Source of the DNA: Clostridiaceae bacterium | GTDB taxonomy: Bacteria; Bacillota; Clostridia; Peptostreptococcales; Natronincolaceae | Length of the DNA: 64,000 nucleotides | Assembly (NCBI GenBank): GCA_020832135.1 | Contig: JAFIFG010000111.1 | Span: forward strand, 124,001-188,000 | Direction of reading: 5' to 3' | Notes under the pieces: generated by a model | Seen by the model: only the letters and a program-made list of their open reading frames with translations | The model's database searches: none | Told to the model about the DNA's origin: nothing | Made by a program: the position numbers and the translations under genes | Shown here: piece by piece, positions 12,224 through 39,047 of the stretch | How the letters are laid out: each line of letters starts with the position of its first letter | How positions within the stretch are numbered: the stretch's first letter is position 1

Positions 12224-13564
12224 TTATTTATTATTCTTTTGTTCTCTCTTTTTAGCAATAATTTGATTTTTGGCAACTCTTATAGAAGGTAGTAACGGTC
12301 TTCTTGCTGGACATACATAGGAACAAGAACCACATTCTATACAATCTAATGCTCTATAGTTTTCAGCCTGTTCCATCCTATTAGCTAGTGAATTTTCACT
12401 AATGTATAAAGGCTGAAGATTTGCAGGGCATATCTCTACACATCGAGCACATCTGATACAGTTGCGAGGATTTGGTTGTTTGGCCTGTTCTTGGTCAAAT
12501 ACAAGTATACCTGAAGTTCCTTTTACTGCCGGTATCTCATCTGTATGTTGTGCATTTCCCATCATTGGTCCACCAAGAATAAGCTTACCCGGAGTAGTAG
12601 CATATCCTCCACATTCTTCTATTAGTTTATTAACAGGTGTTCCAATTTTAAATAATATGTTTTTAGGGTTTTTTATAGCCTTTCCAGTGACAGTAGCTAC
12701 TCTCTCTATAAGGGGCATACCTGTCTTAATAGTTAATGCTATTTGAGCAGCTGTTGCAACATTACTTACAATAACACCAACCTCCATTGGCAATCCTCCA
12801 GAAGGAACCTCTTTATTAGTCACTGCATAAATAAGCTGTTTTTCTCCCCCTTGAGGATACTTGGTCTGTAATGCTACAACCTTAATTTCATCTTCTTTTT
12901 CAATAGCTTTTAACATCACTTCTATGGCATCGGGCTTATTATTTTCAATGCCTATATAAGCTTTTTTTACACCTACTGCCTTCATCATTGCCTTTAGTCC
13001 ATAAACAATTTCCTCTGGTTTTTCCAACATTAAACGATGATCTGTAGTCAAGTATGGCTCACACTCAGCTCCATTTAAAATTATTGTGTCAATATTTTTC
13101 TCAGGTGGTGGTGAGAGTTTGACATGTGTAGGGAAAGTAGCTCCTCCCATTCCAACGATTCCAGCCTCCTTGATAGCATCAACAATCTCTTTAGGCTGTA
13201 GTTTTTCTATATCCCCCTTAGGCTTTATTGAAGGATCAATTTCATTTTTACCGTCTGACTCAATAATCACTGCTAAAGCTTCATTTCCTGTTGCCACTGG
13301 CACATCAGTAACAGCTTTTACTATTCCAGATACACTGGAATGAACAGGAGCTGATACAAAACCTTGGGCTTCTCCAATTTTTTGTCCAACTTTAACTATC
13401 TCTCCTGCTTGTACAATAGGTTCGCATGGAGCTCCTATATGTTGTTGCATAGGTATTACCACTATGGTAGGCTCGACAGCCTTCTCAGTCTTTAAATGCT
13501 CAGTCGCCTCTTTAGCCTCTGGTGGATGAATACCTCCTCTAAAAGTTACAAACTTCATTTTCAT
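12224..13564 (-). CDS. rnfC: Rnf complex subunit C (NADH-binding)
   Basis: Peripheral subunit that exchanges electrons with NAD and carries FMN plus two 4Fe-4S clusters. The product (446 residues) shows an RnfC N-terminal barrel region (GGIHPPE near residue 10). A nucleotide/FMN-binding SLBB-Complex1_51K region carries GMGGATFPTHVK near 140. The C-terminal ferredoxin motifs are CIRCARCVEICP (about 373) and CIECGSCSYVCP (about 412). ATG at 13564 is chosen: GAGGGG lies 5 nt upstream, while a GTG at 13570 overlaps it. First gene of the operon, behind a promoter with a palindromic operator. Confidence 0.95.
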   Translation of the reverse strand: MKMKFVTFRGGIHPPEAKEATEHLKTEKAVEPTIVVIPMQQHIGAPCEPIVQAGEIVKVGQKIGEAQGFVSAPVHSSVSGIVKAVTDVPVATGNEALAVIIESDGKNEIDPSIKPKGDIEKLQPKEIVDAIKEAGIVGMGGATFPTHVKLSPPPEKNIDTIILNGAECEPYLTTDHRLMLEKPEEIVYGLKAMMKAVGVKKAYIGIENNKPDAIEVMLKAIEKEDEIKVVALQTKYPQGGEKQLIYAVTNKEVPSGGLPMEVGVIVSNVATAAQIALTIKTGMPLIERVATVTGKAIKNPKNILFKIGTPVNKLIEECGGYATTPGKLILGGPMMGNAQHTDEIPAVKGTSGILVFDQEQAKQPNPRNCIRCARCVEICPANLQPLYISENSLANRMEQAENYRALDCIECGSCSYVCPARRPLLPSIRVAKNQIIAKKREQKNNK

Positions 13565-13609
13565 TTTCACCCCTCATCAAAATTTTATTAGTGTATTTAG
13601 ACTTAAATT

Positions 13610-13638
13610 ATTATGTTCCCATGAAATATTGTATACAA
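13610..13638 (-). promoter_or_regulatory. rnf operon promoter
   Basis: On the minus strand TTGTAT (13633-13638) is followed after exactly 17 bp by CATAAT (13610-13615), about 45 nt before the rnfC start. The -35 hexamer lies inside the palindrome at 13626-13641, so a protein bound there would directly affect RNA polymerase. Confidence 0.6.
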
Positions 13639-13641
13639 TAT
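13626..13641. promoter_or_regulatory. Perfect 16-bp palindrome over the rnf -35 (candidate operator)
   Basis: ATATTGTATACAATAT is a perfect palindrome. A copy with one base different (ACATTGTATACAATAT) lies at 35921-35936 before pflB. The core TTGTATACAA fits the general nGTn(x)ACn pattern of GntR-family operators. That family link is a guess from the pattern; no GntR gene is in the window. Confidence 0.6.
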
Positions 13642-13859
13642 TTATATAAAAAAATATGGCTTATTATAATTAAGCTTATATTAAATATAAAAAATAAGGA
13701 TTAAATTATTTTTTACTAAGAAGCTTTTTTCATGTTACCTATTTTCTTAGTATAATCATTGTTGGAAGTTTTTCTGTTAAAAACTAGATAATAAAAGATG
13801 TGATATAACAAAACTATTATATAATAAATGGTGAATAATTACTACTTCATCAGAAAAGT

Positions 13860-14405
13860 TTATTTTTTAACAACACCTTGTAAGCCTTCTTTAATGTACT
13901 CCTTCAACCAAAAAAGTACTGTGGTTTCAGTAATTTCTACATTCCGAAGAATTTTTTTAATCTCCATCGTATTAAATTCAAATTTATTATTATTGGAAAA
14001 ATGCGTATAACTATACTCTATATCTTTGTTTGCTGTTATTAACGTAACAATCGTCTCCTCCATATTGCCCATAGGTGCTCGATCAATATGACTATGTTGA
14101 AAACTCGCAACAACTGTTGTACCTTTTCCTTTTTTAGAATTTATCTTAAAGGCTCCATTACATTGTAGTGCAGTAGTTTTAAATAAAGATAACCCCAGTC
14201 CTACTTTTCTTGTAGTTCTAGTAGTAAAAAAAGGATCTGTTACTTTTGCTAAAGTATCCTCATCCATTCCATCTCCATTGTCTTTAATCTCTATTGTTAA
14301 TAAGTCCTTGATTATATCTTCCTTTATAATTATCTGGATTTCAGTAGCATGAGCCTTAATTGAATTTTCAGTAACATCTAATATATGTAGAGCTAGTTCC
14401 TTCAA
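13860..14405 (-). CDS. ATP-binding protein (GHKL/HATPase_c domain)
   Basis: A 181-residue protein with a histidine-kinase-type ATPase fold. It has an N box (HILDVTENSIKA, about 7-18), a G1 box (DNGDGM, about 42-47) and a G2-like box (RKVGLGLSLFK, about 67-77). No dimerisation/phospho-acceptor domain precedes it, so it is not a standard sensor kinase. TTG at 14405 is chosen: GGAGAGG lies 6 nt upstream and gives the family-like start MKELALHILD. It is the last gene of a set with PHP, DRTGG and anti-sigma-like genes that in many Clostridia and Thermotogae precedes electron-bifurcating hydrogenase genes; here it precedes rnf. Its role is unknown. Confidence 0.82.
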   Translation of the reverse strand: MKELALHILDVTENSIKAHATEIQIIIKEDIIKDLLTIEIKDNGDGMDEDTLAKVTDPFFTTRTTRKVGLGLSLFKTTALQCNGAFKINSKKGKGTTVVASFQHSHIDRAPMGNMEETIVTLITANKDIEYSYTHFSNNNKFEFNTMEIKKILRNVEITETTVLFWLKEYIKEGLQGVVKK

Positions 14406-14460: not shown

Positions 14461-14506
14461 GTAGTGCTGAAACTCCCACTTTCATAAGTGAGAGTTCCAG
14501 CACTAC
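14461..14506 (-). other. Long hairpin between the PHP and ATPase genes
   Basis: Arms of 21 nt (14461-14481 and 14486-14506) with a 4-nt loop. Both mismatches are G-U wobbles only when read as minus-strand RNA, so the minus transcript is the folding one. The PHP stop codon lies in the stem. No T-run follows, so an attenuator, processing site or mRNA stabiliser is as likely as a terminator. Confidence 0.6.
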
Positions 14507-15216
14507 ATTCTTGAAATAAATTTAAACACTTCTTCTATACTTATAGATTTTATATCTATTAAAAACTCTCTTTCTAGAATTTCTCCTAATCTATGGGCAT
14601 CAGAGCTTGTCACTCTATTATATCGTTTTAAGTAAGGGTGCTTTTTTATTAGATCATTTAAATTACATTTTGTGGTTACCTCTATTGCCCTAAAACCTAT
14701 GTCAGGAGAAATAAAGCCTAAATTTGTTAATATGCTAAAGCTTTTTCTATCAATGTGGGCAGGAAATACTATACCGCCTATTTTTTGTACTTCTTTTATC
14801 GTTTCTTCTACCGTTAATTCTATAGAATTCATGAGCAAAATATCATATTCCTCCACCACGTGATCTTCATCATCATAAATATATTGATTTCCAAAAAACC
14901 TCACATTATTCTTAATCTTTGGCAATGTCATGTCTAGTATTTTTTGAAATTGTTTTGCATCATTTAATCCTTTAAAAAGTACTATTAAGTGTACCTCTTC
15001 TCTTGTTGTAACCTCTACTCCAGGTATACAAAGAATGCCGTGTTTTTTTCCCACCTCTATGAAGCTTTCTAGGTTAAGAGTCGAATTATGATCTGTAATT
15101 GCAAGTATATCTAATCTCTTTAACAATGCCATGTTGATTATATTATTAGGGGTCATATCTTCATTTGCACAGGGAGATAGTCCACTATGTATGTGTAAAT
15201 CTATTGCTACCTTCAT
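14503..15216 (-). CDS. PHP domain metal-dependent phosphoesterase family protein
   Basis: The 237-residue protein has PHP motif I (DLHIHSGLSPC, about 6-16), motif II (ITDHNS, about 40-45), a GVEVTT block (about 64) and a late SSDAHRLGE (about 207-215). These histidines and aspartates bind a trinuclear metal site in the family, which includes nucleotide and 3',5'-bisnucleotide phosphatases. The substrate here is unknown. It overlaps the preceding DRTGG gene by 4 nt, so the two are translationally coupled. Confidence 0.85.
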   Translation of the reverse strand: MKVAIDLHIHSGLSPCANEDMTPNNIINMALLKRLDILAITDHNSTLNLESFIEVGKKHGILCIPGVEVTTREEVHLIVLFKGLNDAKQFQKILDMTLPKIKNNVRFFGNQYIYDDEDHVVEEYDILLMNSIELTVEETIKEVQKIGGIVFPAHIDRKSFSILTNLGFISPDIGFRAIEVTTKCNLNDLIKKHPYLKRYNRVTSSDAHRLGEILEREFLIDIKSISIEEVFKFISRM

Positions 15217-15554
15217 TTCAGTTCTAAGTATTTGTTGATTTCCACTGCCAAGTCATAAGCACTAAGATTACTTCTCAACAAAGGTATATCTTCTTGTTCT
15301 GCTTTTTTTATTGTTATTTCCTCTATTTCAGCTCCCTCAGCAATAATAACACAAGACACCTCTCCTAGCGCCGCCACAGCAACAACATTTATATTAGTTT
15401 GTATAGTAATCCATACATCCTTTTGTTTGACATGAGACATCACCCAACTTAATAAGTCCCCTATATATACACTCTTAATATCGTTTCCTATTGCTTTTTC
15501 ACCAGCTACTAGCTCAAGATCTAGTCGGCTGATTAATCCCTTTACCGTTCTCAC
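15213..15554 (-). CDS. DRTGG domain protein (short)
   Basis: A 113-residue protein with a DRTGG-like region (VKGLISRLDLELVAGE near the start; IGDLLSWVMSH, about 31-41). The DRTGG fold is related to the regulatory part of phosphotransacetylase and to HPr kinase-type domains, and is thought to bind small ligands. It ends in ATGA overlap with the PHP gene and begins 2 nt after the anti-sigma-like gene. Its role in this conserved set is not known. Confidence 0.75.
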   Translation of the reverse strand: MRTVKGLISRLDLELVAGEKAIGNDIKSVYIGDLLSWVMSHVKQKDVWITIQTNINVVAVAALGEVSCVIIAEGAEIEEITIKKAEQEDIPLLRSNLSAYDLAVEINKYLELK

Positions 15555-15556
15555 AC

Positions 15557-16006
15557 TTACTCACCGCCTTCTTCAGTGTTATTTCCACTATGATAAATAG
15601 TAATACTCAATTCGGTGTATTCGCCGAAGGAGGACCTTATAGCAAACTCATCACAGCATCTCTTAATATTGGGCAGGCCCATTCCTGCACCAAATCCTAA
15701 TTCCCTAACCTTTTGAGAGGCCGTAGAATATCCAGCCTTCATCGCTAGTTCTATATCTTTAATTCCTGGACCTCTATCCCTTACAATAATTTTTACTTTT
15801 TCAGGATCAATACTAGCATCTATAGATCCTCCTTCTGAGTGAATAATAATATTCATCTCAGCCTCATAGGTGGCTATAGCTATTTTTCTAACAATTTTAG
15901 AATTTATGCCTAGTTGTTTCAATACTTTTTTTAAATTACTAGAAGCTTGACCCGCCTTCATAAAATCATCTTTTTCTACCTGATATTTTAATTTAATAGT
16001 AATCAC
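15557..16006 (-). CDS. Anti-sigma-factor-like ATP-binding protein (HATPase_c_2)
   Basis: A 149-residue GHKL ATPase-domain protein of the SpoIIAB/RsbW type. Visible are the N box (ATYEAEMNIIIHS, about 44-56), G1 (RDRGPGIKD, about 73) and the G2-like block LGFGAGMGLPNIKRCCD (about 97-113). Such proteins are serine kinases or ATP-dependent binding switches. GTG at 16006 is chosen because GAGG lies 7 nt upstream; an upstream TTG at 16024 lacks a good site. Packed between two DRTGG genes, it suggests a partner-switching module, though no STAS antagonist is adjacent. Confidence 0.82.
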   Translation of the reverse strand: MITIKLKYQVEKDDFMKAGQASSNLKKVLKQLGINSKIVRKIAIATYEAEMNIIIHSEGGSIDASIDPEKVKIIVRDRGPGIKDIELAMKAGYSTASQKVRELGFGAGMGLPNIKRCCDEFAIRSSFGEYTELSITIYHSGNNTEEGGE

Positions 16007-16035
16007 ATCCTTGCCTCGCACCAATATAGTAGAGC

Positions 16036-16392
16036 TTAATTATGTAAAATGCTAGCCCCTTCAAGTCCATTACTATATAAGATTCCAGAGCTAACATATA
16101 ATGTGTACTTGGTTATCATAATAACTATACCATTTTCTTTAGCAAGTTTTATTGTATCCTCATCCGGCACCTTTCCTCGTACAAAAACCACCCCACTAAT
16201 ATCTAACATCTCAGCTGTTCTAACTGTATGAGGATTAACTAATCCAGTTAATAATAATGTTCTATCTTCAACAGAGGTTAATGCATCACTCATTAGGTCA
16301 CAGGAAAAAGCTTTACTTACTTCTTTTTTCATATACTCATGTCCTGACAATACTTCGGCATCTAACAGGTGCCGCACTTCTTCTAAAGTCAT
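16036..16392 (-). CDS. DRTGG domain protein
   Basis: A 118-residue protein with a recognisable DRTGG domain across nearly its whole length, including GHEYMKKEVSKAFSCDLMSD (about 17-36) and VVFVRGKVPDEDTI (about 68-81). Related domains precede the catalytic part of some phosphotransacetylases. The gene has a GGAGGTGG-like site and follows the SPOR gene by 18 nt. The function in this module is unknown; a ligand-sensing role is inference. Confidence 0.78.
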   Translation of the reverse strand: MTLEEVRHLLDAEVLSGHEYMKKEVSKAFSCDLMSDALTSVEDRTLLLTGLVNPHTVRTAEMLDISGVVFVRGKVPDEDTIKLAKENGIVIMITKYTLYVSSGILYSNGLEGASILHN

Positions 16393-22273: not shown

Positions 22274-22633
22274 ATGAAAAATTTTTATTGGTTAAAGATT
22301 ATCCTAGTTGGATTTACTGCAGGAATTATTAATGGACTTTTTGGAGCAGGAGGCGGAACAATTATCGTTCCTGCCTTGAATTTTGTTTTTGGTGTTCCTC
22401 AACATAAAGCCCATGCTACTGCTATATCTATTATTCTGCCTTTTGCAATTGTCAGTAGTGCCTTGTACTATAAGCATGGATTTACAGCAATGGATGTAAC
22501 ACTTAAGGTTGCTCTAGGAGGAGTGATTGGTAGTTATATTGGTTCGAGATTATTAACTAGGTTCTCCGATAGTTACCTGAGAAAATTTTTCGGCATCTTT
22601 ATGATTGTAGCTGGACTAAGGATGGTGTTTTAA
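22274..22633 (+). CDS. TauE/SafE-family half-transporter, first half
   Basis: A 119-residue membrane protein with about four helices and one copy of the TauE/SafE repeat signature (GLFGAGGGTIIVPAL, about 23-37). Full TauE/SafE anion exporters (sulfite, sulfonates and similar) have two such repeats in about 250 residues. Here the second repeat is in the next gene, whose ATG overlaps this stop as TAATG. GAGGTGAG precedes the start. Most likely the two products assemble as a heterodimer; a disrupted single gene is the alternative. Confidence 0.8.
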   Translation: MKNFYWLKIILVGFTAGIINGLFGAGGGTIIVPALNFVFGVPQHKAHATAISIILPFAIVSSALYYKHGFTAMDVTLKVALGGVIGSYIGSRLLTRFSDSYLRKFFGIFMIVAGLRMVF

Positions 22634-23001
22634 TGTACATCTTTATATTAGGTCTACTGGCGGGAGTTATCGGAGGTATGGGTATTGGTGGAGGAACTAT
22701 CTTAATTCCTGGTTTGATTTTTTTAACTGGTTTTAAGCAACAAACCATCCAAAGTATTAACCTGTTATCCTTTATTCCTGTAGCTGTAGTAGCTTTATTT
22801 ATACATATAAAAAATAAAAATATATTGTTACGACTTACACTCCCGATAGTGTTATGTGGCTTGGTTGGGGCATGGGTAGGCTCTAAATTAGCGGTTAATA
22901 TAGAATCATCTAACCTCAGAAGGTTATTTGGCTTGTTTTTATTAATTATGGGGATTTATGAATTAATCTATAAAGACAAAGAAACAGATAAAGAAAAATA
23001 G
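22633..23001 (+). CDS. TauE/SafE-family half-transporter, second half
   Basis: A 122-residue membrane protein with about four helices and the paired repeat signature (GMGIGGGTILIPGL, about 16-29). Its ATG overlaps the stop of the first half by one base (TAATG), a classic coupling arrangement, so it is probably translated by re-initiation. It has a complete start and a natural hydrophilic C-terminus (KDKETDKEK), which argues for a working half-size subunit. The transported anion is unknown; nearby cysK hints at sulfur compounds, but that is inference. Confidence 0.8.
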   Translation: MYIFILGLLAGVIGGMGIGGGTILIPGLIFLTGFKQQTIQSINLLSFIPVAVVALFIHIKNKNILLRLTLPIVLCGLVGAWVGSKLAVNIESSNLRRLFGLFLLIMGIYELIYKDKETDKEK

Positions 23002-35920: not shown

Positions 35921-35936
35921 ACATTGTATACAATAT
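35921..35936. promoter_or_regulatory. Palindrome at the pfl promoter, near-identical to the rnf palindrome
   Basis: ACATTGTATACAATAT differs by one base from the 16-bp palindrome at 13626-13641. It ends 12 bp before the TGTTATAAT element, i.e. over the -35 region, so the bound protein would compete with or recruit RNA polymerase. Confidence 0.6.
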
Positions 35937-35947
35937 ACAGTATCCTG

Positions 35948-35956
35948 TGTTATAAT
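35948..35956 (+). promoter_or_regulatory. pflB extended -10 promoter
   Basis: TGTTATAAT is a full extended -10 element (TGn plus TATAAT). No good -35 exists at 17 bp; TTGTAT within the palindrome is 21 bp away. This suggests that activity depends on the extended -10 or on a bound regulator. The start codon is about 90 nt downstream. Confidence 0.65.
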
Positions 35957-36045: not shown

Positions 36046-38271
36046 ATGAAAAATTCAAACCTTAAGAGTAACAAATGGACAAAAAAAGTGGATGTTAGGG
36101 ACTTTATACAGGCTAATTATGCTCCGTATTATGATGATGCTAGTTTCCTACAAGGCCCTACCGATAGTACTAAAAAACTTTGGGAAAAAGTATCTGAGTT
36201 AATGGAGTTAGAACGTAAAAATAATGGAACTTTAGATGTTGATGCAGATACAATATCAACCATTATCTCCCATAAACCAGGTTATATAGATCAAAATCTT
36301 GAAAAAATCGTTGGCCTTCAAACAGATGCTCCACTCAAAAGAGCTATTATGCCTTATGGTGGTATTCGCATGGTGGAGAGTGCTTGCGATGCCTATGGAT
36401 ACGATTTAAATGAAAATGTTAAAAATTTATTTTATAATTACAGAAAAACCCATAACGATGGTGTCTTCGATGTATATACTGATGAAATGCTGGCTGCAAG
36501 AAAAGCTGGAATCATTACAGGTTTGCCAGATGCTTATGGTAGAGGTAGAATCATAGGAGACTATAGGCGAGTAGCTCTATACGGAGTAGATCGTCTTGTA
36601 GAAGATAAAATACAACAAAAGAAGTCTCTTGAGGTTGATTGTATAGATGAAGATACTATGCGTCTTCGTGAAGAGATCCAAGAGCAAATTAGAGCTTTAA
36701 ATGAATTGAAGGAAATGGGTAAATCTTATGGATTTGACCTATCCAATCCAGCTTCTAATGCCTTTGAAGCTATTCAATGGACATATTTAGCTTATTTAGC
36801 AGCTGTAAAGGAGCAAAATGGTGCTGCCATGAGCTTAGGTAGAGTTTCAACCTTCCTAGATATCTATATTGAGAAGGATATTTCTGACGGTATTTTAACA
36901 GAAAAGGAAGCACAGGAATTAGTGGACCATTTTGTTATGAAATTAAGAATGGTAAGATTTTTAAGGACACCTGATTACAATGAGTTATTTAGTGGAGATC
37001 CTACATGGGTAACAGAATGTATAGGTGGCATGGGGTTAGATGGAAGACCTCTAGTAACAAAGACCTCCTATAGAATTCTTAATACACTGTATAATTTAGG
37101 TGCGGCTCCTGAACCAAACTTAACTGTATTATGGTCAGAACGTCTACCTGAAAACTTTAAAAACTTCTGTTCTAAAGTTTCTATAGATACTAGCTCTGTT
37201 CAATATGAAAATGATGACCTAATGACACCTTATTGGGGAGATGACTATGGTATTGCCTGCTGTGTATCTGCTATGCCAATTGGTAAGCAAATGCAATTCT
37301 TTGGGGCTAGATGTAATTTAGCCAAAGGATTGTTATATGCCATCAATGGTGGTAAAGATGAAACAACTGGGATGCAGGTAGGTCCAAAATTTGAGGCTAT
37401 TCAATCAGAGTACCTTAACTATGATGAAGTGCTAGAAAAGTTCGATACCTTCATTGATTGGTTAGCCAGATTGTATGTAAACACATTAAATGTTATTCAT
37501 TATATGCATGATAAATATGCCTATGAAAGAATTCAAATGGCCTTACATGATCGCGACGTTATTAGAACTATGGCTTGCGGTATAGCCGGATTATCTGTAT
37601 GTGCCGATTCTTTAAGTGCTATAAAATATGCAAAGGTGAAACCTATTAGAAATGAAGAAGGATTAGCTATAGATTTTGAAATCGAAGGTGATTTCCCTAA
37701 ATTCGGTAACAATGATGATGTTGTTGATACTATTGCATCTGATCTTGTAAAAAGATTCATGGATGCCATTAGAAAAAATAAAACCTATAGAAACTCTATC
37801 CCTACTCAATCTGTTTTAACCATAACCTCTAATGTAGTTTATGGTAAAAAGACTGGTTCTACACCAGATGGTAGAAAAGCTGGAGAGCCTTTTGCACCAG
37901 GAGCAAATCCTATGCATGGTCGTGATACAAAAGGAGCATTGGCATCCTTATCCTCTGTAGCTAAATTGCCTTATGAAGATGCCTTAGATGGAATCTCTTA
38001 CACCTTCTCTGTTGTACCAAAGACCTTAGGTAAAACAGAAGAAGATAGAGTAAGAATATTAACTTCTATGTTGGATGGTTATTTCATTCAGGGAGGACAT
38101 CACATTAATATTAACGTATTTGATAAAGAAACATTATTGGATGCTATGGATCATCCTGAAAAATATCCTCAATTAACCATCCGTGTTTCTGGCTATGCTG
38201 TAAACTTCATTAAGCTTACAAAAGAACAACAATTAGACGTTATTAACAGAACCTTCCACGGTTCCATCTAA
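36046..38271 (+). CDS. pflB: Formate acetyltransferase (pyruvate formate-lyase)
   Basis: Glycyl-radical enzyme converting pyruvate and CoA to acetyl-CoA and formate. The 741-residue product has the twin catalytic cysteines in [13 protein letters not shown] (C405-C406) and the radical glycine in RVSGYAVNF (G716). These are true PFL marks, separating it from glycerol or choline lyases. Start is ATG 36046 or GTG 36043, both behind AAGGGGTGG. It is followed 32 nt later by its activase and preceded by the promoter/palindrome region. Confidence 0.96.
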
Positions 38272-38303: not shown

Positions 38304-39047
38304 ATGCATACTACAGGAAAAATACATTCTATAGAAACCTTTGGTACTGTCGATGGTCCTGGTATTCGTTATATTATATTTTTACAAGGGTGCCCATTAA
38401 GATGTAAATATTGTCACAATAGGGACAGCTGGAATCTACAAGAGGGTAAGGACATGTCTGTAGAGGAGTTATTACAGGATATAAAGAAATATATCCCCTT
38501 TATGAAATCCTCTGGCGGTGGGGTTACCATCAGTGGTGGAGAGCCTACCCTGCAATTAGAATTTTTACTACATTTGTTAAAGGAACTAAAGAAGCTTGAT
38601 GTCCATACCTGCCTAGATACTTCTGGCTTTATCCATACTTCCCTTATGGAGGAGGTATTGGAATATGTTGACTTAGTATTAATGGATGTCAAGCATATTA
38701 ACTCTACAAAGCATAAGGAACTAGTAGGTGTAGACAACGACAAAATCTTAGCTTTTGGAGAGTACCTAAGTCAAAAAAGTATACCGATATGGATTCGTCA
38801 TGTGGTAGTACCTACCTATACAGATGAGGAAGTGGATATAAAAGGCTTAGCAGAATATATTTTAAATTTAAAGTCTGTTAAAAAGGTTGAACTGCTACCC
38901 TACCATTCTATGGGTAAGGAGAAATGGCAGGCTTTAGGTCTCCAATATCCTCTGGAGGGCTTACCGGATGCAACAGAGGAAGATATTAAACGAGTTAAAG
39001 CTATCTTCAATAGATACTTTGAAAAATATAGCTTGAAAATAGCATGA
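38304..39047 (+). CDS. pflA: Pyruvate formate-lyase activating enzyme
   Basis: Radical SAM enzyme that installs the glycyl radical on PFL. The 247-residue product has the cluster motif CPLRCKYCHN (about 30-39) after FGTVDGPGIRY (about 13-23), and GGGVTISGGEPTLQ (about 71-84). No extra ferredoxin insert, as expected for a PFL-type activase. It is cotranscribed with pflB and ends before a strong terminator. Confidence 0.96.
   Translation: MHTTGKIHSIETFGTVDGPGIRYIIFLQGCPLRCKYCHNRDSWNLQEGKDMSVEELLQDIKKYIPFMKSSGGGVTISGGEPTLQLEFLLHLLKELKKLDVHTCLDTSGFIHTSLMEEVLEYVDLVLMDVKHINSTKHKELVGVDNDKILAFGEYLSQKSIPIWIRHVVVPTYTDEEVDIKGLAEYILNLKSVKKVELLPYHSMGKEKWQALGLQYPLEGLPDATEEDIKRVKAIFNRYFEKYSLKIA

Follow-up and report, generated by a model that had tools for sequence, protein, structure and literature searches.

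In many anaerobes, the way in which pyruvate is split and ferredoxin drives the formation of an ion gradient is set by the Rnf complex and pyruvate formate-lyase (PFL), and the clostridial DNA analyzed here, a 64-kb stretch referred to as the window, raises the question of whether the two operons answer to one regulator. The palindrome ATATTGTATACAATAT lies at positions 13626–13641 upstream of rnfC, and ACATTGTATACAATAT, identical to it at 15 of 16 positions, lies at 35921–35936 upstream of pflB, over the −35/spacer region; neither is assigned to a strand. An initial annotation had paired the two sites and placed both in intergenic DNA, and re-reading of the sequence bears this out, with position 13626 located 68 bp 5' of the probable rnfC ATG (13558) and position 35936, the 3' end of the pflB site, located 110 bp 5' of the probable pflB ATG (36046). 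The exact 12-mer ATTGTATACAAT occurs in the window at these two sites only, where 0.025 copies are expected under a base-composition model (probability of two or more, ~3e-4), and the earlier statement that the window holds no further intergenic copy is correct for this exact 12-mer. Pattern searches of the 4.0-Mb host genome returned three exact copies, before rnfC, before pflB, and within a TAXI-TRAP substrate-binding gene unrelated to rnf or pfl, compared with ~1.5 expected from composition. Many scattered copies were the first thing said to count against a shared operator, and the idea survives this count; since the genome-wide number is close to expectation, however, copy number is weak evidence and the case rests on position and conservation.

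The pflB gene (36046–38271, + strand; Pfam PFL-like and Gly_radical domains) is followed by pflA, which encodes the PFL activating enzyme (38304–39047, + strand; Radical_SAM and Fer4_12). Shifted by 7 bp from the pflB palindrome is a second, overlapping dyad, ATACAATATACAGTAT, at 35928–35943, likewise assigned to neither strand, and the two together (35921–35943) span the −35 and spacer of a promoter whose conserved extended −10 element, TGTGTTATAAT, occupies 35946–35956 of the + strand (the −10 itself at 35951–35956). The combined dyads, TGTATACAATATACNGTAT, are conserved within the host family, and the distance between TGTGTTATAAT and the operator is nearly fixed in most host-family pflB leaders. 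The initial annotation had each operator covering the −35 region of the only convincing promoter of its operon, a description that holds at pflB, with its conserved extended −10, but is not established at rnfC.

The rnfC gene (12224–13558, − strand; RnfC_N and Complex1_51K) is the first of the rnf operon, which runs to lower coordinates, and its probable start codon follows the conserved ribosome-binding site AGGGGTGA. In the host genome a candidate promoter, TTGTAT-17-CATAAT, overlaps the palindrome as a weak promoter match, and promoter-like matches are near chance (6 found, 3.9 ± 2.0 expected). The claim for this promoter is weak because alignment of the rnf leaders showed that the overlap with the palindrome is not kept in relatives. 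A further block, which contains TATAATA and TTAACA motifs and lies ~180–230 bp from rnfC on the upstream side (leader 13558–13860), is retained in the closest relatives and is possibly the main promoter of rnf; the 300-bp leader may hold others at a greater distance from the gene. Immediately 5' of rnf and in the same orientation, a run of small genes encoding DRTGG-domain, PHP-domain, and histidine-kinase-like ATPase proteins (14503–16392) is possibly a signalling cassette. Elsewhere in the window, + strand open reading frames at 22274–22633 and 22633–23001 match the C-terminal and then the N-terminal half of the TauE/SafE exporter family, an arrangement of half-size proteins in swapped order.

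Conservation was assessed in DNA upstream of rnfC and pflB from 20 host-family genomes and from named outgroups found via PflB and RnfC, under a strict rule demanding an exact GTATAC core, a match of at least 13 of 16 to a degenerate consensus, and a location no more than 250 bp upstream. The strict palindrome precedes pflB in 10 of 11 host-family genomes and rnfC in 15 of 19. Shuffles covering family and outgroups predict 0.24 of 33 for pfl and 0.35 of 31 for rnf, and the ispE promoter, serving as control, yielded 0 of 28; the consensus was partly derived from the scored sequences, and the shuffles and the control outweigh the raw scores. All ten host-family PflB orthologs of at least 79% identity are preceded by an intact GTATAC-core palindrome, usually with the second dyad 7 bp on, while no palindrome was found in the pflB leader of the eleventh (genome G004, PflB 63% identical). 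In the rnfC leaders of relatives the flanks have diverged, and the element ATACAGTATACAATAT with its variants forms the best-conserved island. Outside the host family, where other Clostridia families are reached, Geosporobacter and Alkalithermobacter are among those with the site upstream of both rnf and pfl; at Alkalithermobacter pflB it is present as two perfect copies, and the 7-bp tandem dyads recur in the pflB leaders of Geosporobacter, PL23a, and L322.

A looser criterion of 14 of 16 was discarded, since 8 of 26 ispE promoters used as controls matched it as well. An exact-core search of 41 genomes detected 63 copies versus 23 of a reversed control, a real enrichment whose targets are mixed because several FCD regulators probably share the core. 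GTATAC in the rnf leaders of Peptostreptococcaceae is probably part of a −10 TATACT and was left out as support, although the Metaclostridioides leader (L401) passes the strict test. Conservation in relatives was the second point on which the initial annotation had staked its proposal, and the palindrome is kept before rnf and pfl alike. These comparisons show that the palindromes are a real, conserved operator common to the two operons, and that both copies are under selection.

A survey of FadR-subfamily GntR regulators describes their operators as AT-rich palindromes built from TKGT/ACMA boxes, in which GT and AC stand 2 or 3 nt apart (PMC4494728). Both palindromes in the window read TTGT-AT-ACAA, which fits this consensus (GT-N2-AC), and in sequence they are operators of the FadR-subfamily (FCD/VanR-type) GntR class. 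The earlier assignment of the core to a GntR rather than a Rex pattern is upheld, no Rex match being present at either operator. Three FCD-GntR genes of related families (L011, L211, and L225) have an exact copy of the palindrome as a direct neighbor. Together with the two outcomes described above and the precedent of Atu1419 discussed below, these neighbors support the earlier suggestion of one GntR-type regulator common to rnf and pfl, though the regulator itself is one that we infer. No account of such a regulon was found in the literature, mainly open access, searched for the palindrome sequence and for rnf, pfl, and GntR together; the regulon appears to be new and the regulator class known.

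The host genome contains 12 GntR-type genes, only two of which, L094 and L095, encode the recognition helix SRTPVREA. L094 (G000:C68), directly downstream of ispE, combines an N-terminal GntR winged helix-turn-helix (PF00392, E 6.9e-18) with a C-terminal FCD domain (PF07729, E 6.4e-26). Across 28 sequences of L094 and its orthologs, E40, R51, T52, and R55, which correspond to the Atu1419 DNA contacts E34, R45, T46, and R49, are invariant, and the FCD residues D138, H142, H186, and H208, an Asp and three His that are likely metal ligands, are at least 95% conserved. An ortholog lies beside ispE in 16 of 20 host-family genomes and in 11 outgroup genomes; the gene is cleanly absent from its place after ispE in G004 and G011, and no ispE locus was found in G013. 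FadR-subfamily GntR genes commonly, though not obligatorily, carry or adjoin their own operator. Autoregulation of ispE-gntR was considered and rejected, as the upstream alignment shows only the promoter block TATATAATATATA and the strict site occurs in none of 28 genomes.

Among genomes with the ispE-linked GntR, 16 of 20 carry the strict pflB site, as against 0 of 12 among those without it (Fisher p 1.6e-5, with only 3–5 phylogenetically independent contrasts); on the PflB tree, those contrasts that differ go the expected way and none the opposite, their number being too small for significance. G004, devoid of gntR at ispE, is also devoid of both the rnf and the pfl site. For rnf the association is not significant (20 of 26 genomes with the GntR, 2 of 5 without; p 0.13). 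C. difficile, Metaclostridioides, and Acetivibrio have the GntR and lack a strict pflB site. In G011 and G018 (L051 and L050), reduced genomes of one genus, no GntR protein was detectable, and ATTTAGTATACAATAT, a 15/16 rnf site, is kept before rnfC, reflecting either a recent loss of the GntR or another protein that reads the site. We put the probability that the GntR-FCD protein beside ispE reads the palindromes at about 0.6, because the pflB contrasts are few, the rnf association is weaker, and the rnf site persists in G011 and G018, where no GntR was detectable.

The same observation in G011 and G018 favors the alternative that the operators are real but have a different reader, either the CitO-like L095 or a regulator outside the GntR family. 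L095, a second FCD-GntR beside citC/citS-like genes (neighbors named from sequence), has the same SRTPVREA helix; ribbon-helix-helix proteins that bind heptads exist, and the 7-bp tandem half-sites could suit one. L095, however, belongs to a citrate-fermentation locus and, among the matches, has no close relative in most host-family genomes, and against a non-GntR protein stand both the agreement of GT-N2-AC with surveyed FCD-GntR operators (PMC4494728) and the FCD-GntR genes adjoining the palindrome in related families. We consider a different reader less likely than L094.

We favor, with the confidence attached above to L094, an explanation in which a single FadR-subfamily GntR (GntR-wHTH plus FCD, VanR-type), most likely L094, represses both operons; its identity, the sign of its action, and its ligand are what we infer. 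A GntR dimer would contact the GTATAC core through the SRTPVR helix. At pflB, dimer binding over the −35/spacer and the second overlapping dyad would exclude RNA polymerase, repression being the simplest reading there because the operator covers these elements, while at rnfC the protein would bind ~70–160 bp upstream of the gene, depending on species, most simply as a repressor too. The repressor would leave the DNA once its FCD pocket, which contains a metal, had bound a small carboxylate or one-carbon metabolite, and pyruvate-to-formate flux and ferredoxin:NAD-driven ion pumping would then be switched together.

Activation, at least at rnf, has in its favor that the site there often lies upstream of any −35 and, in genus g7, just upstream of a plausible promoter, but it is improbable in view of the pflB site covering the −35/spacer of a conserved promoter and of inactivating mutations in T. 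saccharolyticum (PMC13277313) that would fit a PFL repressor, if the mutated gene is the ortholog. That two AT-rich palindromes came to overlap promoter-like sequence by chance, an idea to which the AT-richness of the genome, the copies expected from composition, and the intragenic third copy might point, is refuted for practical purposes: the element precedes both operons far more often than in the shuffles or at the control ispE promoter, and it is retained where flanking DNA is scrambled.

In Clostridia, Rex is the NADH-sensing protein that usually represses fermentation genes and also controls electron-transfer genes, and the Rex-type palindrome TTAACAATTGTTAAG precedes rnf in Peptostreptococcaceae, namely Romboutsia (L400), Metaclostridioides (L401), and C. 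difficile (L403), suggesting that rnf changed regulator between lineages. Rex control of rnf and pfl in the host is nevertheless highly improbable, as the conserved element is GTATAC-centered and Rex matches in the window are at chance (21 found, 17 expected), with none at either operator.

The motif also occurs in other host-family genomes before genes for pyruvate:ferredoxin oxidoreductase (PFOR; L018), KOR (L136), the phosphotransacylase PduL (L021, L200, and L233), the ATP synthase c subunit (L146), and pyruvate carboxylase (L175), and strict or near-strict intergenic sites likewise precede glutamine synthetase and others, each additional target being seen in one to three genomes only. A site at HydF (L151) was dropped as mainly a −10 box. 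The theme of these targets is pyruvate, ferredoxin, and energy metabolism, although other FCD regulators will act at some of the sites. Exact ATTGTATACAAT copies in a related family lie before citrate synthase (L213 in G037, confirmed; L224 in G026) and before FCD-GntR genes, which suggests that a separate regulon, linked to the TCA cycle, uses this core too. Tentatively, the GntR-FCD of the ispE locus may sense a central metabolite and, across Clostridia, couple pfl with Rnf; in some lineages PFOR/KOR, phosphotransacylase, and ATP synthase would be drawn in as well. With one conserved operator common to the two operons and a named candidate for its reader, control of both becomes directly testable, in organisms used to make ethanol and acids among others.

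The closest precedent is Atu1419 of Agrobacterium fabrum, a VanR-type FCD GntR that binds ATGTATACAT via Glu34, Arg45, Thr46, and Arg49; its binding was abolished by the G-to-A change that corresponds to turning GTATAC into ATATAT (PMC7797058). The candidate shares with it the GntR plus FCD architecture, the SRTPVR recognition helix, and the DNA-contact residues, and in both systems a GTATAC-centered palindrome overlaps promoter elements (PMC7797058). Atu1419, in contrast, controls hydroxycinnamate catabolism, and its site is the 10-bp ATGTATACAT (PMC7797058); here the conserved flanks reach ATAYTGTATACARTAT, and in many cases another dyad follows at 7 bp. The FadR-subfamily survey describes GntR, UxuR, PrpR, MdcY, HypR, and HpxS, with 2-nt spacing, as sharing a GT-N2-AC palindrome in AT-rich DNA, and many of these control central carboxylate metabolism; unlike here, no regulator of rnf or pfl is seen in the parts consulted, and the survey includes a single Clostridia member (PMC4494728). 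The Rex operator, TTGTTAA-N4-TTAACAA, differs from the palindrome and is absent at both sites.

A further parallel comes from T. saccharolyticum strains without nfn and hydrogenase genes, in which flux moved from PFOR to PFL and Tsac_0749, a FadR-subfamily GntR of 226 aa, was repeatedly inactivated, by frameshifts and by A24T, L36P, and R53S, every point mutation falling within the DNA-binding domain (PMC13277313). The targets of Tsac_0749 were not known to the authors, and when gntR was knocked out by itself, a strain that makes ethanol changed little (PMC13277313). Like the candidate, Tsac_0749 is a Clostridia GntR of the FadR subfamily (PMC13277313), and its A24, L36, and R53 would align with A26, L38, and R55 of L094, a constant residue offset that hints at possible orthology; its loss-of-function mutations would fit a PFL repressor if the two are orthologs. 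The sites described here offer a target list for a regulator with observed but unexplained mutations. If the proposal is true, GntR-FCD would join Rex as a second global switch of energy metabolism in anaerobes, and the gntR mutations that recur in T. saccharolyticum strains dependent on PFL would have an explanation.
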